This document shows, piece by piece, positions 1 through 7,438 of a stretch of DNA of 7,438 bases. Position 1 is the first letter of the stretch, and every line of letters starts with the position of its first letter. The notes beneath the pieces are model-generated. The model did not search any database and was not told where the DNA came from. It saw only the letters and a program-made list of their open reading frames with translations. Origin of the DNA: Massilia sp. UBA2604 (GTDB lineage: Bacteria > Pseudomonadota > Gammaproteobacteria > Burkholderiales > Burkholderiaceae_D); NCBI GenBank assembly GCA_002339265.1, contig DDKG01000111.1, forward strand, positions 1 through 7,438, given 5' to 3'. The position numbers were made by a program, and so were the translations under genes.

Positions 1-49
1 CAAGCAGTCGAACAGCATGTCCTCGATGGTCATGTCGCTGCTGCAGTAA
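1..49 (+). CDS. Flagellin, C-terminal end only (truncated by the window edge)
   Basis: The first complete codon is at 2 and the TAA stop is at 47-49, encoding 15 residues (KQSNSMSSMVMSLLQ). These 49 bases are identical to the last 49 bases of the complete flagellin gene downstream (1019-1067), so this is the 3' end of a tandem paralogue on the same strand. The residues form the end of the C-terminal D0 helix, which packs in the core of the filament and carries the polymerisation surface. A terminator follows, so this gene is probably transcribed separately from the next. The full length and how far the identity extends cannot be seen. Confidence 0.9.
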   Translation, partial: KQSNSMSSMVMSLLQ

Positions 50-61
50 TCGTCCCGGGGA

Positions 62-76
62 CCGGGTTCGGCCCGG
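62..76 (+). repeat. GC-rich hairpin preceding the flagellin terminator (copy A)
   Basis: CCGGG (62-66) pairs with CCCGG (72-76) around a TTCGG loop. It lies between the flagellin stop codon and the T-tailed terminator. A hairpin in the same relative position, with different bases, follows the second flagellin (1081-1096). It may protect the mRNA 3' end or assist termination; that role is inference. Confidence 0.45.
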
Positions 77-85
77 GCGCCAGAG

Positions 86-115
86 AAAAAGGCCATCCCT
101 GCGGTTGGCCTTTTT
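86..115 (+). terminator. Rho-independent terminator of the upstream flagellin gene
   Basis: AAAAAGGCCA (86-95) pairs perfectly with TGGCCTTTTT (106-115) around a 10-base loop. The 3' arm contains a run of five T. It lies 36 bases after the flagellin stop codon, where an intrinsic terminator is expected, and separates the two flagellin genes into distinct transcripts. Confidence 0.85.
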
Positions 116-159
116 CGTTTCTGAACCAGGCGTCATGGAAAATATTTCTCAAAAGAATT

Positions 160-186
160 TAATGCCAGCGAGAAATTTGCCGCCTT
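160..186 (+). promoter_or_regulatory. Candidate sigma-28 (FliA-type) promoter for flagellin
   Basis: TAAT (160-163), then 15 bases, then GCCGCCTT (179-186). The enterobacterial FliA consensus is TAAA-N15-GCCGATAA, so the spacing is exact, with three of four bases matching in the -35 element and the GCCG core of the -10 element intact. An A/T-rich stretch lies upstream (about 139-163). Transcription would start near 193-197 and leave a leader of about 45 bases. No sigma-54 GG-N10-GC pattern was seen here. Class 3 flagellar genes such as flagellin normally use this sigma factor. The -10 half is degenerate, so this is a candidate only. Confidence 0.45.
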
Positions 187-199
187 ATACAGTTGAGAG

Positions 200-214
200 C
201 GAGTGACGCACTCG
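200..214 (+). promoter_or_regulatory. 5'-UTR hairpin upstream of flagellin
   Basis: CGAGTG (200-205) and CACTCG (209-214) form a perfect 6-bp stem with a 3-base loop (ACG). It lies in the predicted flagellin leader, 15 bases upstream of the Shine-Dalgarno site, which it leaves exposed. It could stabilise the 5' end of the mRNA or serve as a regulator binding site. Function is not established. Confidence 0.4.
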
Positions 215-229
215 AAACCGCAACCCATC

Positions 230-234
230 AGGAG
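230..234 (+). promoter_or_regulatory. Shine-Dalgarno site of the complete flagellin gene
   Basis: AGGAG lies 5 bases before the ATG at 240. The strong match and good spacing fix the start codon and suit a highly translated structural protein. Confidence 0.85.
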
Positions 235-239
235 TTACC

Positions 240-1067
240 ATGCTGAGCCTTCACACCAATAACGCCGCCCTGTCCGCGCAGAATTCGATCTCGCGCACCC
301 AGAGCACGCTGTCGACCTCGATGACCCGCCTGTCGACCGGCTATCGCATCAATTCGGCGATGGACGACGCCGCCGGCCTGCAGATCGCCTCGCGCCTGAA
401 GGCCCAGACCTCGGGCATGACCGTCGCCATGCGCAACACCCAGAACTCGACTTCGATGCTGCAGACCGCCGAAGGCGCGCTGGACGAAGTGTCGAACATG
501 CTGATCCGCATGAAAGACCTGGCCACCCAGGCTGCCGACGCCTCGTCGACCGATGACGACGTGACCGCTATGCAGGCTGAATACGATGCGCTCGGCCTCG
601 AACTGGACAACATCATGACGAACACGACTTTCGGCGGCAAGCCGCTGCTGGATGGCGGCACCCTCGATGCGGCCATGACTTTCCAGATTGGCGCGTCGGC
701 TAGTGAAACGATGTCCGTCAATCTGAGTACCGAGCTTGGCGAACTGGTGACCGCCATCGGCACTGCTACCCCCGCCGATGCTCTCGACACCGCTGGTACC
801 GCCATCGGCAACCTGACCGACGCGCTGGATAAGGTCGGCGTCGTTCGCTCGGGCCTGGGTGCCGCCGCCAACCGCCTGGAACACGTGTACAACAACCTGG
901 CCAACATCAGCACCAACACCAAAGCCGCCACCGGCCAGATCATGGACGTCGACTTCGCCAGCGAAAGCGCGAACATGACCTCCAATCAGATGCTGCTGCA
1001 GGCCTCGACCGCCATGCTCAAGCAGTCGAACAGCATGTCCTCGATGGTCATGTCGCTGCTGCAGTAA
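240..1067 (+). CDS. fliC: Flagellin, short (275 aa), complete
   Basis: This is the structural subunit of the flagellar filament, exported through the flagellar type III apparatus and polymerised at the tip. Residues 1-140 form the conserved N-terminal D0/D1 region, with LSTGYRINSAMDDAAGLQIA at 31-50. Residues 196-275 form the C-terminal D1/D0 region, with IMDVDFASE at 234-242. Only about 50 residues separate them, so the exposed D2/D3 domains of long flagellins are essentially missing. Positions matching the TLR5 contact patch of Salmonella FliC appear kept (R90, L94, E114); this is from memory, not an alignment. The C-terminus is rich in Met and Ser. The ATG at 240 is supported by AGGAG at 230-234. 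A paralogue lies immediately upstream, and each gene has its own terminator. Ser/Thr residues around 150-195 are possible glycan acceptors, given the vioA/vioB-like genes next door; this is inference. Whether it belongs to a polar or a lateral system cannot be settled here, so fliC is used generically; lafA is the alternative. Confidence 0.95.
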   Translation: MLSLHTNNAALSAQNSISRTQSTLSTSMTRLSTGYRINSAMDDAAGLQIASRLKAQTSGMTVAMRNTQNSTSMLQTAEGALDEVSNMLIRMKDLATQAADASSTDDDVTAMQAEYDALGLELDNIMTNTTFGGKPLLDGGTLDAAMTFQIGASASETMSVNLSTELGELVTAIGTATPADALDTAGTAIGNLTDALDKVGVVRSGLGAAANRLEHVYNNLANISTNTKAATGQIMDVDFASESANMTSNQMLLQASTAMLKQSNSMSSMVMSLLQ

Positions 1068-1080
1068 CAGCTTGCGCGAT

Positions 1081-1096
1081 CCCGGTTCGCACCGGG
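1081..1096 (+). repeat. GC-rich hairpin preceding the flagellin terminator (copy B)
   Basis: CCCGGT (1081-1086) and ACCGGG (1091-1096) form a perfect 6-bp stem with a TCGC loop, 14 bases after the flagellin stop. It is the counterpart of the hairpin at 62-76. The two differ in sequence but keep the stem. Confidence 0.45.
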
Positions 1097-1106
1097 CTGA
1101 AACGAC

Positions 1107-1133
1107 AAGGCCAACCGCGAGGTTGGCCTTTTT
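1107..1133 (+). terminator. Rho-independent terminator between flagellin and the converging vioB end
   Basis: AAGGCCAACC (1107-1116) pairs perfectly with GGTTGGCCTT (1121-1130) around a GCGA loop and runs into TTT, giving five T in a row at 1129-1133. It terminates the flagellin transcript. The - strand operon ends 19 bases away (vioB stop at 1152-1154) with no other terminator visible, so the same hairpin may also serve that operon. Its T-tract on the - strand is weak. Confidence 0.85.
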
Positions 1134-1151
1134 CATGGCGCAGCTACCGTT

Positions 1152-1835
1152 TCAAACGTCCTGCCAGCCCACCGGACGCCGCTTGACGACCCGCGCCGGC
1201 ACGCCCACCGCGATGCATGCATCCGCGACCGGGCCGGTGACCACGGCGCCGGCGCCGACGACGCTCCAGGCGCCGACCGTGCAACGCGGTATGACCGAGC
1301 AGCCGGTCCCCAGCTCCGCGCCCTCGCGCAGCAGGACATTGCCGGCGACGTGCACGCCGGGCGCAAGGGTGACGAAGTCTTCCAGCACATCGTCATGGGC
1401 CAGCGTGCTGCCGACATTGACGTGCACATGGGCGCCGATCCGGATATCGGTGGTCAGCATCGCACCGGCGCAGATGAGCGCGCCCTCGCCCAGGGCGACC
1501 GCGTCGCCGATCCACGCGCGCGGGTGCACCAGGGCCGGAAACGGATTGCCGCCCTGGGCGCGGATACGCCGCACCACGGCGCGGCGCGCCGCGGGCGCGC
1601 CCAGCGCCACGACGACGTGGACCTCGGGACGGCCTGCCAGCCAGTCGAGACCGCCCAGCACCGGCAAGCCGGCCACCGCGGACGCCCCTTCCAGGCCGGC
1701 GTCGACCAGGAAGCCCCGGCAATCCCAGGTCGGCCGCAGCGCATTGATGTCGCGGACGGTCTGCAGCACCTCGCGGCCATGGCCGCCGGCGCCGAAGATC
1801 ACGAGCGGTCGAGGTGCGCTCAGGACTGCGCTCAT
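1152..1835 (-). CDS. vioB: VioB-like sugar N-acyltransferase (NeuD/PglD left-handed beta-helix family), 227 aa
   Basis: It probably acylates the 4-amino group of a dTDP-4-amino-4,6-dideoxyhexose using acetyl-CoA or another acyl-CoA in the cytoplasm. The N-terminal domain (about 1-95) starts with the Rossmann-like glycine motif FGAGGHG (14-20), which in PglD-type enzymes binds the nucleotide sugar. From about 100 to 217 there are imperfect hexapeptide repeats of a left-handed beta helix, ending in GVPARVVKR (211-219). His147 in GSTLAHDD (142-149) aligns by motif with the catalytic histidine of PglD. The ATG overlaps the vioA stop as ATGA (1832-1835). No convincing Shine-Dalgarno lies upstream, so translation is probably coupled to vioA. 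Pairing with a VioA-like aminotransferase favours VioB. A PglD- or NeuD-type enzyme with another substrate, or an O-acetyltransferase, remains possible. The family is secure, the exact substrate less so. It is the last gene of the - strand operon. Confidence 0.82.
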   Translation of the reverse strand: MSAVLSAPRPLVIFGAGGHGREVLQTVRDINALRPTWDCRGFLVDAGLEGASAVAGLPVLGGLDWLAGRPEVHVVVALGAPAARRAVVRRIRAQGGNPFPALVHPRAWIGDAVALGEGALICAGAMLTTDIRIGAHVHVNVGSTLAHDDVLEDFVTLAPGVHVAGNVLLREGAELGTGCSVIPRCTVGAWSVVGAGAVVTGPVADACIAVGVPARVVKRRPVGWQDV

Positions 1836-2944
1836 GACTGCACGACGAGGCGCACGATGCGCTCGACATCCGTATCGCCCAGGTCGGGGTAGATCGGCAG
1901 GCACAGCACCGCGCGCGCCGCGGCCATGGCGACCGGCAGATTGTCGCGCTGTGCGGACGGCAGCCCGCGATACATCGGGAACTCGGTGATCAGGGGATAG
2001 AAGTAGCGCCGCGCATGGACGCCGGCGTCCTTGAGCTTCCGGTACAGCGCATCGCGCCCGAGCGGATGCTCGGGGCCCACCAGGATCGGGAAATAGGAAT
2101 AATTGGCCACGCTCTCGCCGGCGTCGTCCAGGCAGCGGATGCCCGCCACGCCGGCCAGCCGCTCGCGGTACAGCGCGTCGATCGCACGACGGCGCGCGAT
2201 CGCCCCATCGACATGGCGCAGCTGCAGCATGCCGAAGGCCGCATTGATCTCGCTCATCTTGCCATTGATGCCGGGCGCGACCACCGTGACCTCGTCGACG
2301 AAGCCGAAATTCTTGAGGTGGTCGATGCGCTGCTTGGTGCGCGCGTCGGGGCACACGATGGCGCCGCCCTCGAAGGTGTTGAACACCTTGGTCGCGTGGA
2401 AGCTCAGCACCGCCAGGTCGCCATGCCGCAGGACGCTGCCGCCGGCGTCGCGCACGCCGAAGGCATGGGCCGCGTCGTAGATCACGCGCAGGTTGTAGTT
2501 GTCGGCGATCTTCTGGATCGCCTCGACGTCGCAGGGATGGCCGTAGCAGTGCACCGGCATGATGGCCGTCGTCTGCGGCGTGATCGCGGCCTCGATCCGG
2601 GCCGGGTCCAGGTTCAGCGTGCGCGGATCGACGTCGACGAACACCGGCTTGATCCCGTTCCACAACAGCGAATGGGCGGTGGCGACGAAGGAATACGGGG
2701 TGGTGATCACCTCGCCCGTGATGCGCAGCGCCTGCAGCGCCGTCACCAGCGCCAGTGTGCCGTTGGAGAACAGCGCCAGGTGCTCGACGCCGAGATAGTC
2801 GCACAGGGCGCGTTCGAGCTGCTGGTGGAACGGCCCGCCGTTGGTCAGTATCCGGTTGTCCCAGATCTTTTCCAGGTAGGGCAGGAATTCGTCCAGCGGC
2901 GGCAGATGCGGCCGCGTGACGTAGATCGGAGTGTCCTTGCTCAT
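1832..2944 (-). CDS. vioA: VioA-like dTDP-4-keto-6-deoxyglucose aminotransferase (DegT/DnrJ/EryC1/StrS family), 370 aa
   Basis: PLP-dependent sugar aminotransferase. VioA converts dTDP-4-keto-6-deoxy-D-glucose plus glutamate to dTDP-4-amino-4,6-dideoxy-D-glucose (dTDP-viosamine). Visible elements are SNGTLAL (60-66, cofactor phosphate region), the cofactor aspartate D157 in IYDAAHAFGV, and the Schiff-base lysine K186 in SFHATKVFNTFEGGAI (181-196). NGKMSEINAA (227-236) is the family's second conserved block. The HATKVFNTFEGG form resembles VioA. QdtB/FdtB 3-aminotransferases usually carry a YPxKNLGA-type motif and WecE a HETKN-type motif. These comparisons are from memory. The length is normal for the family. 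The ATG at 2944 has a strong AGGAG (2951-2955) 6 bases upstream. The gene starts 35 bases after flhA with no terminator between them, so it is probably read through from the export operon. It overlaps vioB by 4 bases. Its position beside flagellin genes suggests a role in flagellin glycosylation; O-antigen synthesis is the main alternative. Confidence 0.87.
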   Translation of the reverse strand: MSKDTPIYVTRPHLPPLDEFLPYLEKIWDNRILTNGGPFHQQLERALCDYLGVEHLALFSNGTLALVTALQALRITGEVITTPYSFVATAHSLLWNGIKPVFVDVDPRTLNLDPARIEAAITPQTTAIMPVHCYGHPCDVEAIQKIADNYNLRVIYDAAHAFGVRDAGGSVLRHGDLAVLSFHATKVFNTFEGGAIVCPDARTKQRIDHLKNFGFVDEVTVVAPGINGKMSEINAAFGMLQLRHVDGAIARRRAIDALYRERLAGVAGIRCLDDAGESVANYSYFPILVGPEHPLGRDALYRKLKDAGVHARRYFYPLITEFPMYRGLPSAQRDNLPVAMAAARAVLCLPIYPDLGDTDVERIVRLVVQS

Positions 2945-2976
2945 ACGCTTCTCCTGTGCGAATCGAGCGTGTCCAT
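2941..2976 (-). other. Possible 11-codon coupling micro-ORF between flhA and vioA
   Basis: An ATG at 2976-2974 begins three bases after the flhA TGA, in the same frame. It reads 11 codons (MDTLDSHRRSV) and stops at a TGA (2943-2941) that overlaps the vioA ATG as ATGA. Its tandem AGG AGA arginine codons are the vioA Shine-Dalgarno itself. The arrangement could pass ribosomes from flhA to vioA by termination and reinitiation. It has no strong Shine-Dalgarno of its own and is short enough to occur by chance. No protein function is claimed. Confidence 0.25.
2951..2955 (-). promoter_or_regulatory. Shine-Dalgarno site of vioA
   Basis: On the - strand AGGAG lies 6 bases before the vioA ATG. It is clearly stronger than the sites before flhA and vioB, so vioA can initiate independently of flhA although it lies in the same apparent operon. 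Confidence 0.75.
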
Positions 2977-2979
2977 GGT

Positions 2980-5082
2980 TCAGCCCACGGTCCCCACGAT
3001 CGACACGTCGCGGTTCTCGGGAATCTCGTTATACGACAGCACGTGCAGGCCCGGCGCGAACAGGCGCGCGTAACGGGCCAGCAGCGGGCGCACCTGCGGC
3101 AGCACCAGCAGCAGCGGCGGCGTGTGCTGCTGCTTCATCTGCTCGCGCGCTACCGGCATATTAATCTGCAACTGCGACAGCAGCTGCGGATCGATCGGGT
3201 AATTATCCAGCACCACCTTGCCGCCGCCGGCCTGGCGCGCCTGGTTCAGGGAGCCGAGCAGCATGTTTTCCAGTTCGGCCGACAGGTTAAAGGCCGGCAT
3301 GTCCTTCTTCTTGCCGAACAGGGTCGACACGATCTGGCGCCGCAGCGCGCAGCGCACCTCGGCCGCCAGCAGGATCGGATCCTTGGTCGTCTCCGAACTG
3401 TCGAGCAGGGTGGTGGCGATCACCACGATGTCCTTCAGCGACACGCCTTCGGCCAGCAGCACGCGGAACACGCGCAGCAGCTGGGTGTGCGTCAGCGCCT
3501 TTTCCAGCGCCGCCGCCAGCTTGGGCGACAAGGCGGTCAGGCGCTCCAGGATCGCCGGCACGTCCTCGTGGCGGAACAGCTCGTGCAGGTATTCGCGCAC
3601 CACCTTGGAGACGTGGGTCGCGATCGCGCTCGGCACCTCGACCACCTGGTAGCCCAGGCCCAGCGCATGCGCCTTCTGGTCGGGCGTGATCCAGGTGATG
3701 GCCATGCCGTAGGCCGGCTCGATGCCGGGGACGCCATCGAGTTCGCCATACACGTTCGGCGACGGGATCGCCAGCAGGTGCTCGGGCATCACCTCGGCCT
3801 CGGCCACCACGGTGCCGGACAGGCTGATCGAATACTGGGTCGGGCGCAGCGCCAGGTCGTCGCGCACCCCGATCGCCGGCAGCAGCATGCCCATCTGTTC
3901 CGACAGGCTCTGGCGCACGCCCTTGATGCGCTTGGACAGCGGCTCGCCCTGGGCGCGGTCGACCATGCCGACCAGCTTGTAGCCGACCGCCACCGTGACC
4001 GGCTGCACCACCGGCAGGGCCTGCCAGTCGAGGTCCGGGACGCGCTCGTCGCGCAGCGCGGCCTCGATTTTTGCCACGCCGGCGACGTCGGGCGCCTTGA
4101 TCCGGCCGCCGACCTTCCAGCCGGCGAAGGCCAGCACCGCCGCCGCCAGCGCGAAGAACAGCCATGGCATGCCCGGCACCACCGCCATCAGCAGCATGAC
4201 GCCGGCCGCCGAGTACAACACGCCCGGCTGGGCCAGCACCTGGTTGCCGACCTGCTGTTCGAGGTCGCCCGATTCGCCGATGCGGGTCACCAGGATCGCA
4301 GCTGCCGCCGACAGCATCAGGGCCGGGATCTGGGCCACCAGGCCGTCACCGATGGTCAACAGCGCATACACGCGGAACGAGTCGCCCAGGGCCAGGTCGT
4401 ACATCAAGGCGCCGATCGCGACGCCGCCCACCAGGTTGATGATCAGGACCAGGATCGAGGCGATCGCGTCGCCGCGCACGAACTTCGAAGCGCCGTCCAT
4501 GGCGCCGTAGAAGTCGGCTTCGGCGGCGACGTCCTTGCGCCGCGTGGTGGCCTGTTCCTGGTTGATCAGGCCCGCGTTCAGGTCGGCGTCGATCGCCATC
4601 TGCTTGCCCGGCAAGGCATCGAGCGTGAAGCGCGCCGAGACTTCCGAGATCCGTTCCGCGCCCTTGGTCACGACGATGAAGTTAATGATCATCAGGATCA
4701 CGAAGATCACCAGGCCGACCACGAAGTTGCCGCCGATGACGACGTTGCCGAAGGCTTCGATCACCTGGCCGGCCGCATGGGTGCCCTCGTGGCCGTGCAG
4801 CAGCACGACTCGGGTAGATGCAACATTGAGCGCCAGCCGCATCAAAGTCGCGCCCAGGATCACGGTCGGGAATACCGAGAAGTCGAGCGGACGCTTGGCC
4901 GTCACCGCGACCAGGATCACGATCAGCGACAGCACGATGTTGAAGGTGAACAGCACGTCGAGCAGGATCGGCGGCAGCGGCAGCATGATCATGCCCAGCA
5001 GCGCGATCAGGAATACCGGCGCGGCGAACTTGTGCCGCCGCAGCTCGCCGACGAAGGCATTGATGGTATTCGTGAAGTTCAT
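2980..5082 (-). CDS. flhA: FlhA, flagellar type III export gate protein, 700 aa
   Basis: FlhA is the large export-gate subunit. Its membrane part uses the proton motive force, and its cytoplasmic part forms a nonameric ring that docks chaperone-substrate complexes. Residues 1-325 carry about eight hydrophobic segments and the FHIPEP hallmarks: MRLALNVASTRVVLLHGHEG (81-100), EVSARFTLDALPGKQMAIDA (147-166) and GDGLVAQIPALMLSAAAAIL (245-264). A linker (about 326-360) leads to the cytoplasmic domain, ending in SYNEIPENRDVSIVGTVG. The length is typical. The chaperone-pocket block reads EPAY (455-458) where Salmonella has DPAF, a conservative change. The ATG at 5082 overlaps the flhB stop as ATGA (5079-5082), and its Shine-Dalgarno is weak, so coupling to flhB is likely. 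A longer open frame upstream is the flhB antiframe and is ignored. vioA follows instead of flhF/flhG. A lateral-type orthologue (lfhA) is possible. Confidence 0.97.
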   Translation of the reverse strand: MNFTNTINAFVGELRRHKFAAPVFLIALLGMIMLPLPPILLDVLFTFNIVLSLIVILVAVTAKRPLDFSVFPTVILGATLMRLALNVASTRVVLLHGHEGTHAAGQVIEAFGNVVIGGNFVVGLVIFVILMIINFIVVTKGAERISEVSARFTLDALPGKQMAIDADLNAGLINQEQATTRRKDVAAEADFYGAMDGASKFVRGDAIASILVLIINLVGGVAIGALMYDLALGDSFRVYALLTIGDGLVAQIPALMLSAAAAILVTRIGESGDLEQQVGNQVLAQPGVLYSAAGVMLLMAVVPGMPWLFFALAAAVLAFAGWKVGGRIKAPDVAGVAKIEAALRDERVPDLDWQALPVVQPVTVAVGYKLVGMVDRAQGEPLSKRIKGVRQSLSEQMGMLLPAIGVRDDLALRPTQYSISLSGTVVAEAEVMPEHLLAIPSPNVYGELDGVPGIEPAYGMAITWITPDQKAHALGLGYQVVEVPSAIATHVSKVVREYLHELFRHEDVPAILERLTALSPKLAAALEKALTHTQLLRVFRVLLAEGVSLKDIVVIATTLLDSSETTKDPILLAAEVRCALRRQIVSTLFGKKKDMPAFNLSAELENMLLGSLNQARQAGGGKVVLDNYPIDPQLLSQLQINMPVAREQMKQQHTPPLLLVLPQVRPLLARYARLFAPGLHVLSYNEIPENRDVSIVGTVG

Positions 5083-6218
5083 GCTTGTCTTTCGCTCAGG
5101 TGAGATGGGACGTCCATCTCGTGGGGGAACCGCGGGGGCGCCTGGCGCCGGCCCGTGCGGAACGCATTCAATTGTAAAACGTAGTTCAGCACCTGCGACA
5201 CCGCCTGGTACAGCTGGGCCGGAATCTGCTGCTGCACCTGGCTGGTGTTGTAGATGGCGCGCGCCAGCGGCGGCAGGGTCAATGTCTCGACATTGTTTTC
5301 CCGCGCTATCTGGCGGATGTACAGCGCCATCTCGTCGACGCCCTTGGCCACCACGAACGGCGCCTCGGCGCGCGCGGTGTCGTACTTGAGCGCCACCGCA
5401 TAGTGTTCCGGATTGACGATCACGACGTCGGCGGTCGGCACCGTGCTGCGCACGCTGCGCCGGGCCAACTGCTGCTGCAGCTGGCGGATGCGCTGCTTGA
5501 CCTCGGGGCGGCCCTCGTTGCTCTTGTGTTCTTCCTTGATCTCTTGCTTGCTCATGCGCTGGTTGCGCATGAACAGGAAGTGCTGCACCGGCACGTCGAT
5601 CAGCGCGAACACCACGAACACCGCCACCAGCGCCATCAGGGCGTCGAAGGCCAGGCCGCTGCCGGCGGCGATGGCGTCCATCAAAGGCATGCGCTGCAGC
5701 TCGACGTAGGCCTTCATGCCGGCGCGCGACACCATCCACAGCACCACGCACAGCATGACGGCCTTGCCGAACGAGGTGAGAAAGCCCACCCAGTGCTTTT
5801 GCGTGAACAGGTTGCCCAGGTTGGTGATGGGGCTGAAGCGGCTCAGTTTCGGCTGCAGGTTCTTGCCGCTGGCGACGAAGCCGCCCGGCATCGCGCCGGC
5901 CACGACGATCGCCAGCGGGATCGCCAGCAGCGGCAGCACCATCTGCACCAGCAGCATGACTGCGGCGCCGAACACGGTCGACAGCGCGTTCTCCATGTCT
6001 CCCGCCGCGCCCAGCGGCACGAACACGAGCCGGAACAGGTGGCGCATGTCTTCCAGGTAGGTGGGCGCCATCAGGGCGAACAGCTTGAGGCTGATCAGGA
6101 TGCCGACCGCGGTCGCCAGGTCGCGCGAACGCACCACCTGCCCTTCCTGGCGCGCCTTCTTGAGCTTCTGCGCCGAGGGCTTTTCGGTCTTGTCGCCGCC
6201 GCTGTTGTTATCCGCCAC
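5079..6218 (-). CDS. flhB: FlhB, flagellar export switch protein with NPEH cleavage motif, 379 aa
   Basis: FlhB sits in the export gate and switches substrate specificity from rod/hook to filament proteins after self-cleavage in its cytoplasmic domain. The basic N-terminus (KTEKPSAQKLKKARQEGQVV, 10-29) is typical of the family. Four hydrophobic segments follow at about 34-51, 83-111, 147-165 and 188-216. A charged linker (about 217-260) leads to the cleavage site. That site reads NPEH at 269-272, followed by YAVALKYD; most FlhB proteins have NPTH. The Asn-Pro bond and the histidine are kept. The start codon is GTG (6218-6216), with AGGA at 6225-6228 inside the end of fliR, an 11-base overlap. 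The next in-frame stop overlaps flhA. The length is close to Salmonella FlhB, and the motif falls at the same residue numbers. SctU-type injectisome proteins are homologous, but the flagellar context settles the call. Confidence 0.97.
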   Translation of the reverse strand: MADNNSGGDKTEKPSAQKLKKARQEGQVVRSRDLATAVGILISLKLFALMAPTYLEDMRHLFRLVFVPLGAAGDMENALSTVFGAAVMLLVQMVLPLLAIPLAIVVAGAMPGGFVASGKNLQPKLSRFSPITNLGNLFTQKHWVGFLTSFGKAVMLCVVLWMVSRAGMKAYVELQRMPLMDAIAAGSGLAFDALMALVAVFVVFALIDVPVQHFLFMRNQRMSKQEIKEEHKSNEGRPEVKQRIRQLQQQLARRSVRSTVPTADVVIVNPEHYAVALKYDTARAEAPFVVAKGVDEMALYIRQIARENNVETLTLPPLARAIYNTSQVQQQIPAQLYQAVSQVLNYVLQLNAFRTGRRQAPPRFPHEMDVPSHLSERQA

Positions 6219-6999
6219 GGGCCATCCTCATCTGCTCGGTCAGCATCTCGAGCACCTGGTTGGTCATGGCGATGTAGTGCTCGGGAATGAAGCGCACCAG
6301 CTGGATCAGCATCAGGAGGCCGAAGATCGTCACCAGCGCGAAGCCGAGCGAGAACAGGTTCAGGCTGGGCGCGACCCGGTTCAGGAAGCCGAAGCCCATC
6401 TGCACCACGATGGTCGAGAACACGATCGGCAGCGCCAGCAGCATGGCGGCGGCGAACACCCAGCCGACATTGAGCGCCACCGCTTCCAGCAGCATCGGCT
6501 GGAAGCCTGAACCGACCGGCCAGGCGTGGAAGCTCTGGCCCAGCACCGCGACCAGCACCAGGTGGCCGTCGATCGCGAAGAACACCAGCATCGCCACCAG
6601 CGACATCAGGCCCGAGATCACGTCCGAGACCTGGCCGTTGATCGGATCGTTCATCTGGGCCATCGAGAAGCCGATCTGGCTCGAGGTCAGGAAGCCCAGC
6701 ATGGTGACGGCCGCCATCGCGAACTGCAGGGCCAGGCCCAGCACGCCGCCGATCACGGCCTGTTCGAACATCGCCACCACGCCGGACAGCGAAAACGGAT
6801 CGGGCGCGGCCATGCCGGCGCGCGTGGTCAGGGGCAGCATCAGGAACGACAGCACGATCGCCAGCAATGCGCGCACCGGCATCGGGATGGTGCCGTCGCC
6901 CAGCACCGGGGCGGTGACCATCATCGCCATGATGCGGCAGAACGGCCACCACAGGGCGCCGATCAGCGGCAGCAGGAAGCTGAACAGCTCGATGCCCAT
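6208..6999 (-). CDS. fliR: FliR, flagellar export gate membrane protein, 263 aa
   Basis: FliR joins FliP and FliQ in the helical export-gate complex that forms the secretion pore in the inner membrane. The protein is hydrophobic almost throughout, with about six membrane segments. It contains the conserved QIGFSMAQMNDPINGQVSDV stretch and FFAIDGHL further on, where FliR proteins have a similar FLALDGHL block. It ends with a short basic tail (MRMARGG). The length is normal. The ATG at 6999 directly abuts the fliQ TGA (7002-7000) with no spacer and only a GGTGG-like Shine-Dalgarno, which suggests coupled translation. Its last codons overlap the flhB start. Confidence 0.96.
   Translation of the reverse strand: MGIELFSFLLPLIGALWWPFCRIMAMMVTAPVLGDGTIPMPVRALLAIVLSFLMLPLTTRAGMAAPDPFSLSGVVAMFEQAVIGGVLGLALQFAMAAVTMLGFLTSSQIGFSMAQMNDPINGQVSDVISGLMSLVAMLVFFAIDGHLVLVAVLGQSFHAWPVGSGFQPMLLEAVALNVGWVFAAAMLLALPIVFSTIVVQMGFGFLNRVAPSLNLFSLGFALVTIFGLLMLIQLVRFIPEHYIAMTNQVLEMLTEQMRMARGG
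6225..6228 (-). promoter_or_regulatory. Shine-Dalgarno site that sets the flhB GTG start
   Basis: On the - strand AGGA lies 6 bases before the GTG at 6218, within the last codons of fliR. It supports GTG as the flhB start. The resulting N-terminus (MADNNSGGDKTEKPS) matches typical FlhB N-termini in length and charge. Confidence 0.7.
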
Positions 7000-7269
7000 T
7001 CAACCCACCAGGGTCGCCGCGCGCTGGAATACCGAAACGCAGTAATCCATCAGCCGGGTCGTCATCCAGTGGCCGGCCAGGATCACCGCCAGCAGGGTCA
7101 CCAGCAGGCGCGGCAGGAAGCTCAGGGTCTGTTCGTTGATCTGGGTGGCGGCCTGGAACAGCGCCACCACCAGGCCCATGATCAGGCCCGGGACGACCAG
7201 CACCATCACCAGCAGCATCACAATCTGCAGGGCCTCGACCACCAGGTCGACGGCGATATCGGGACTCAT
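7000..7269 (-). CDS. fliQ: FliQ, flagellar export gate membrane protein, 89 aa
   Basis: FliQ is a small two-helix membrane protein, present in several copies around the FliP/FliR core of the export gate. Two hydrophobic segments (about 15-38 and 50-70) flank the conserved loop ALFQAATQINEQTLSFLPRL (36-55), a hallmark of FliQ. The length is exactly typical. The ATG at 7269 has only a weak GAGAG-like Shine-Dalgarno about 10 bases upstream and lies 31 bases after the fliP stop. The stop codon abuts the fliR start. Confidence 0.97.
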   Translation of the reverse strand: MSPDIAVDLVVEALQIVMLLVMVLVVPGLIMGLVVALFQAATQINEQTLSFLPRLLVTLLAVILAGHWMTTRLMDYCVSVFQRAATLVG

Positions 7270-7300
7270 GTTCGTCGCTCTCTCGTGTGTTATCGGCCGG

Positions 7301-7438
7301 CTAGTAGCCGTGGATGCTGCCCACCAGGGTGCTCACCGTCAGGGTCCAGCCGTCGACCAGCACGAACAGCAGCAGCTTGAACGGCAGCGAGATCACCAGC
7401 GGCGACAGCATCATCATGCCCATCGCCATCAGCACCGA
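7301..7438 (-). CDS. fliP: FliP, flagellar export gate protein, C-terminal 45 residues (truncated by the window edge)
   Basis: The frame runs in from the right edge of the window and ends at TAG (7303-7301). The visible residues contain [20 protein letters not shown], the very conserved FliP C-terminal segment, followed by [20 protein letters not shown]. In full-length FliP this forms the last membrane helix and the C-terminal end. The order fliP-fliQ-fliR on the same strand confirms the call. Confidence 0.96.

Follow-up and report, generated by a model that had tools for sequence, protein, structure and literature searches.

Several bacterial systems that glycosylate flagellin have been described. 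The flagellin glycan of Pseudomonas syringae pv. tabaci 6605 requires vioA, vioB, vioT and vioR, as well as vioM for methylation (PMC3927599), and the flagellin of Burkholderia cenocepacia is entered in a review table as carrying Qui4N(3-OHBut) (PMC12355684). In Caulobacter crescentus, the flagellin transferase FlmG (596 aa) consists of a TPR and a glycosyltransferase (GT) part and uses pseudaminic acid (PMC7591256). The flagellin glycosylation islands of Enterobacteriaceae, located between fliC and fliA, are variable and horizontally exchanged and contain genes for GT41 enzymes, DegT aminotransferases, acetyltransferases and fatty-acid genes (PMC4875605); in Xanthomonas, vioA is placed near fleQ, rpoN2 and fliC, not behind flhA. 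The subject of this work is a stretch of 7,438 nucleotides from Massilia sp. UBA2604 (contig DDKG01000111.1, positions 1 to 7,438, forward strand; hereafter the window), in which genes for a sugar aminotransferase and a sugar N-acyltransferase directly follow the flagellar export-gate gene flhA and converge on a flagellin gene. We propose, with a probability of roughly 0.78, that these genes make an acylated Qui4N (viosamine) donor for a GT41 transferase encoded on the flagellin side, and that the slot behind flhA is exchangeable.

With the P. syringae viosamine island the locus shares vioA/vioB-type enzymes for a predicted flagellin glycan, and vioS, vioR and acp of that island correspond to the KAS, SDR and ACP genes of larger cassettes found in related genomes; the island is flanked by genes for glutamine synthase and histidine kinase, whereas the window's genes stand behind flhA, and VioT (1,173 aa) adds the terminal sugar to a rhamnan, whereas the GT41 enzyme is expected here to act on flagellin (PMC3927599). 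The sugar class predicted on flagellin is that of B. cenocepacia (PMC12355684), and in the named Burkholderia loci the GT41 and aminotransferase genes are neighbours near flagellin, although both lie on one side of it and no flhA junction was seen. The predicted transferase resembles FlmG, with its flagellin-binding TPR domain and GT-B domain, and would differ from it in the sugar used (PMC7591256). Enterobacterial islands are likewise variable, exchanged gene sets at flagellin with GT41 enzymes and DegT aminotransferases; here, in contrast, the donor genes are found behind flhA, on the opposite strand and apart from the transferase, and GT41 is fused to an aminotransferase in some genomes, while many enterobacterial GT41 enzymes carry methyltransferase domains (PMC4875605). 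Because such islands with GT41 are published, exchange beside flagellin is already known; the position following flhA, the separation of donor genes from the transferase gene, and the fusion were not found in the literature searched. Those searches, with most subscription papers outside their scope, found neither the flhA location nor the GT41-aminotransferase fusion; on Massilia flagellin glycosylation the only match was a Rickettsia paper, and on FlmQ nothing was found.

The sugar genes behind flhA

The aminotransferase gene (1832-2944, minus strand, 370 aa) is separated from flhA (2980-5082, minus strand; PF00771, 772 bits) by a junction of 35 bases (2945-2979, minus strand), which contains a ribosome-binding site, AGGAGAAG, three bases 5' of the aminotransferase ATG. 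It shares 4 bases (ATGA) with the acyltransferase gene (1152-1835, minus strand, 227 aa), both frames being intact, and the pair is convergent with a complete flagellin gene (240-1067, plus strand, 275 aa; PF00669 and PF00700), the product of which is the predicted acceptor. This layout confirms what a first-pass annotation, made from the sequence alone, had described as viosamine genes 35 bases behind flhA on the same strand and facing tandem flagellins, except that the second flagellin gene is visible only as its final 49 bases (1-49, plus strand), recognized by their identity to the end of the complete gene (1019-1067). Apart from the sugar genes, every gene called here is flagellar, with no flanking polysaccharide genes of the kind that mark an O-antigen cluster; sugar-donor genes placed at a flagellin locus are one feature of a flagellin glycosylation island.

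The aminotransferase belongs to the DegT/DnrJ/EryC1/StrS family (PF01041, 349 bits, cut-off 19.8) and aligns as a DesI/VioA-like sugar 4-aminotransferase. Its best solved relative is DesI (2po3, E 3e-72), followed by perosamine synthetase (E 1e-51), and its K186 and D157 align with K200 and D171 of DesI; we take these to be the positions of the pyridoxal phosphate lysine and aspartate. The earlier label "VioA" was a guess at function; among the NCBIfam models, that of DesI fits best. The acyltransferase is a member of the VioB/NeuD family of sugar N-acyltransferases (TIGR03570, NeuD/PglB/VioB; NeuD/PglD/VioB), scoring 193 bits and above the cut-off of 160.8. VioB (7txp, E 1e-34) is its best solved relative, and its H147, invariant in four relatives, aligns with VioB H135 and is presumably the catalytic histidine. 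DesI, which serves antibiotic-sugar synthesis, and VioB are relatives at the level of sequence. The product of the two enzymes is likely to be a Qui4N donor with an N-acyl group.

In a terminator scan of the window, no candidate was listed in the interval from flhA to the aminotransferase gene, in agreement with the first-pass annotation. The 35-base gap, the ribosome-binding site and the lack of a listed terminator do no more than make co-transcription with the export gate plausible. No sigma-70-type site was found in the window by the site scan and no exact sigma-28 match; sigma-54-like matches were fewer than expected by chance and relaxed sigma-28-like matches were within chance, and these scans neither show nor exclude a separate promoter for the sugar genes.

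Recurrence of the junction

Massilia sp. IC2-477, whose locus (L027) carries the junction, belongs to a genus-level group of 62 genomes, with FlhA detected in 53 (E 1e-200 or better) and no FlhA match in the other 9. An aminotransferase 68-88% identical to that of the window is present in 22 of the 62. In 10 of these (G001, G010, G013, G036, G038, G044, G049, G055, G061 and G063), the aminotransferase is 74-88% identical and starts on the strand of flhA, 17-68 bases beyond the FlhA match, and a chance layout was therefore rejected. The other 12 consist of six with GT41 fusions, one with a GT41 neighbour away from flhA and five with the gene elsewhere (G002, G030, G043, G047 and G056); G044 has a second copy elsewhere. 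On a tree with 60 members the flhA-adjacent label changes 2 times, compared with a mean of 10.2 for shuffled labels, and a value as low was reached in 0 of 500 shuffles.

Genes of a WbqC cluster (assigned by a Pfam run on one member, L124) stand beside the aminotransferase in L127, L128, L129, L132 and L151 and near GT41 in L124, L145 and L146; they may represent another route to modify the 4-amino group.

A GT41 transferase beside flagellin in relatives

Upstream of flagellin, relatives of the window encode a protein of some 720 aa that combines TPR repeats and a GT41 domain (PF13844; Pfam run on L027). When the 62 genomes were searched with the C-terminal domain, GT41 was detected in 26, as the flagellar type (57% identity or more) in 18 and as a second type only (44-50%) in 8. 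The 18 divide into the 10 with the junction and a further eight, G007, G014, G023, G028, G029, G045, G046 and G053. Each of the 10 junction genomes has GT41 next to a flagellin gene (in G013 at another place in the chromosome), and this co-occurrence, together with six GT41 fusions, supports the tie between a Qui4N-type donor and flagellin that had been suggested from the window alone. In the other eight, a different DesI-like aminotransferase, 41-44% identical to that of the window (499 bits on TIGR04427 for the one tested), is located between flagellin and GT41, and within the genus group the two arrangements, flhA-adjacent and GT41-side, never occur together. The same search found no flagellar-type GT41 in the remaining 44 genomes, and the aminotransferase search gave neither class at this locus in them, some contigs ending a short way past flhA. 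In G037 a DegT gene of lower identity (35%) follows the flagellins, together with a TPR protein of another kind.

Since relatives place GT41 upstream of flagellin and the window ends in a flagellin tail, GT41 is predicted just beyond the left edge. The first-pass annotation was right that the 7,438 nt hold no glycosyltransferase gene; its expectation of a transferase from elsewhere gives way to this predicted neighbouring position. It had also expected rmlA and rmlB to come from elsewhere: rmlB (TIGR01181) and rmlA (TIGR01207) are above cut-off in 18 of 18 genomes with the flagellar GT41. They are also common in 14 control genomes (rmlB 10/14, rmlA 7/14), so this result only removes an objection concerning the precursor.

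Substrates, products, acceptor, co-transcription and a GT41 gene in this genome are predictions, function being read from homology only. The aminotransferase and acyltransferase would most likely convert dTDP-4-keto-6-deoxyglucose to dTDP-4-acylamino-4,6-dideoxyglucose (dTDP-Qui4N-acyl). This compound would be the donor for the predicted TPR-GT41 protein, which would probably glycosylate the neighbouring flagellins before export. Different donor-gene sets behind a conserved flhA would then alter the acyl group on the flagellar sugar, with the transferase unchanged beside flagellin. Were this so, a single short intergenic site could reveal which type of glycan the flagella of many Oxalobacteraceae carry, and there would be a testable explanation for the re-coating of a flagellum that leaves both flagellin and the transferase untouched. 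The exchangeable flagellin glycosylation islands known from Enterobacteriaceae (PMC4875605) would be extended to another place and gene order.

Some genus-group loci without the flagellar GT41 (L162, L165, L166, L167, L169, L170 and L173) have a different TPR protein beside flagellin, on the opposite strand. That of L162, on which Pfam was run, gave a marginal GT9 match, and this GT9-like TPR protein is possibly another flagellin transferase.

Exchange of gene sets in the slot behind flhA

A tree of 20 near-full FlhA sequences places that of the window together with those of G061, G023, G038 and G013 at 100/100, the FlhA identities to the window being 98%, 97%, 95% and 95%, respectively. The slot behind flhA nevertheless differs among these close relatives. 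It holds the aminotransferase and acyltransferase in the window, the aminotransferase alone in G061, and no sugar gene in G023, which has the other aminotransferase class beside GT41; in G038 and G013 it is filled by 6-7 genes, for the aminotransferase, KAS III, ACP (called in G038 only), KAS III, SDR, acyltransferase and Rieske proteins. The slot of G008 (FlhA 94%, left out of the tree) is also without a sugar gene. Nucleotide identity between the window and G061 is 90-98% through flhA and 74-87% in the aminotransferase gene, with no alignment in the acyltransferase gene; between the window and G023 the alignment ends 3 bases past flhA.

A single group formed by the aminotransferases of the window, G061, G038 and G013 was rejected (cost 71.6 log units, p-AU 1e-6). 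As sister of the window's enzyme, both G061 (p-AU 0.30) and G036 (p-AU 0.09) are allowed. The nearest acyltransferase found is that of G036 (75%), and the FlhA of G036 (87%) as sister of the window's FlhA was rejected (p-AU 2e-6). G007, G028 and G029 carry an acyltransferase (60-61%) alone behind flhA, with the aminotransferase on the GT41 side. Judged from these alignments and trees, the slot behind flhA is an exchange site between lineages. We consider it an evenly balanced question whether it amounts to a glycotype switch, in which GT41 stays beside flagellin and the donor cassette behind flhA is swapped between lineages, the donor enzyme being elsewhere fused to the transferase. In such a switch, replacement of no more than the terminal genes of the export-gate operon would alter the surface chemistry of the flagellum.

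In a family sample of 392 genomes, the aminotransferase was found at E 1e-140 or better in 112, of which 91 lie outside the genus set. In none of these 91 does it lie within 100 bases of flhA; of the linkage that the first-pass annotation proposed to survey, the flhA-aminotransferase part was seen in 10 of 62 genomes of the genus group and in none of these outside genomes. In 33 of the 91 it is located 3-25 kb past the flhA 3' end and points back. Fourteen loci were chosen from these 33, and in all of them GT41 adjoins the aminotransferase upstream and flagellin lies between the aminotransferase and flhA; L196, L197 and L200 carry intervening genes for KAS, KAS, SDR and acyltransferase, to which two of the three add Rieske. 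In L198 and L199 the intact pair is separated from flagellin by 10-13 kb, and a partial copy is closer. Because the chosen outside loci keep the aminotransferase and GT41 on the flagellin side and none of the 91 genomes has it by flhA, the place behind flhA seems to be a derived one for a module of the flagellin side.

GT41-aminotransferase fusions and a second GT41

In six genus-group genomes, an aminotransferase (a 68-70% relative) is encoded inside a frame of more than 1,100 codons, the called proteins being 1,089-1,112 aa. A Pfam run on one of them (L137) found TPR, GT41 and PF01041 in a single chain, and in G005 the GT41 and aminotransferase parts are neighbouring genes. A protein search with the aminotransferase domain of the fusion (7,989 scored candidates, 0.55-1.75 times the fusion length) gave 155 matches at E 1e-40, with PF13844 in 96 of the 120 listed. 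Through the fusion, one class of sugar and one enzyme of protein glycosylation are linked within the same gene, which would help to assign donors across the large and mostly untested bacterial GT41 family.

The GT41 of the fusions is of the second type, and all six genomes are without the flagellar GT41. This second type, 44-48% identical to the flagellar one, is unfused in 13 genomes (G001, G005, G008, G010, G013, G023, G038, G044, G045, G046, G049, G055 and G061), and 11 of these 13 also possess a flagellar-locus aminotransferase. In the three second-GT41 regions read, it is 62-68% identical to the GT41 part of the fusion, with no aminotransferase match nearby. The second GT41 may share the flagellar donor.

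The fusion loci (L136-L139, L141 and L142; split form L140) are not near flagellin and stand opposite Rieske, acyltransferase, two SDR and KAS III genes. An FkbM methyltransferase gene adjoins some of the TPR-GT41-aminotransferase fusions.

Alternative explanations

Several findings weigh against a flagellin-directed donor. GT41 is not seen in the window and is expected in this genome from relatives, and kinship weakens the GT41 co-occurrence, the contrasts being few: 3 when limited to well-supported branches, 12 when the best tree is taken. The aminotransferase scores 308.8 bits on the DesI model (TIGR04427), below the equivalog cut-off of 650, and so is not filed as DesI itself. Three junction genomes (G001, G044 and G061) have no acyltransferase relative at E 1e-12. 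In the central part of flagellin, the mean Ser/Thr share is 0.29 in GT41-bearing loci (17 flagellins) and 0.24 in others (32 flagellins); the window's value of 0.197 is below both means and the conserved ends differ in the opposite direction, and this acceptor test was not used as support. Among 80 aminotransferase loci, GT41 lies within 100 bases upstream in 17, of which 15 have a flagellin match; this type of aminotransferase is evidently not flagellum-specific.

The last finding also bears on the alternative, allowed for O-antigen by the first-pass annotation, that the pair supplies Qui4N to O-antigen or some other surface polysaccharide and came to lie behind flhA by chance insertion. Most of the 80 loci are without a GT41 neighbour, and in five genus-group genomes every copy of the aminotransferase gene is apart from flhA and GT41, a WbqC-cluster gene being adjacent in 5 of 7 such loci. 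However, the window has no other polysaccharide gene, and the junction copies occur with the flagellar GT41 in every genome of the genus group that has them and cluster in the tree of 60, for which reasons we retain this explanation as an unlikely one. Somewhat less improbable, although still doubtful, is that the donor serves flagellin together with other proteins or glycans through the second GT41 (its C-terminal domain showing 44-50% identity), which many of these genomes encode: its fusion to the aminotransferase where the flagellar GT41 is missing, its frequent presence in genomes with a flagellar-locus aminotransferase and its three regions without an aminotransferase match would fit a shared donor, but its target and its presence in the window's genome are conjectural. 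That the genes are a remnant or a passing insertion without use in this strain could be argued from the lack of a transferase in the window and the low Ser/Thr share; with both frames intact, the active-site residues aligned and the flagellar GT41 in every junction genome, we regard it as very improbable. A flagellin-directed donor therefore remains our preferred interpretation, and the interpretation given by the first-pass annotation is, as a whole, partly supported.

Other features of the window

Upstream of flhA on the minus strand are flhB (5079-6215, PF01312), fliR (6208-6999, PF01311) and fliQ (7000-7269, PF01313); fliQ, fliR, flhB and flhA form a gapless run, the three genes other than flhA spanning 5079-7269. 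FHIPEP, Bac_export_1, Bac_export_2, Bac_export_3, Flagellin_N and Flagellin_C are all above their cut-offs in the window's proteins, and FlhA scores 748 bits on TIGR01398, below the cut-off of 772. An Rfam scan of the window gave no match at gathering scores. A hairpin followed by a T run (1107-1134, plus strand; 10-bp stem, -18.4 kcal/mol, z -4.2) sits in the convergent gap and is a likely terminator of the flagellin gene, although absent from the terminator-scan listing.

A protein filed under Oryza sativa Indica (P0118) combines flagellin domains with an aminotransferase of the window's type; it is probably bacterial contamination in which two neighbouring genes were modelled as one. A conserved protein of about 284 aa (X284, a cluster of 51 members, e.g. 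L027:11102-11956 and L133:3864-4715) has no Pfam or NCBIfam match and is FliK-like by eye. Its gene is absent between acyltransferase and flagellin in the window; in most genus-group flhA loci it lies between flhA and flagellin.

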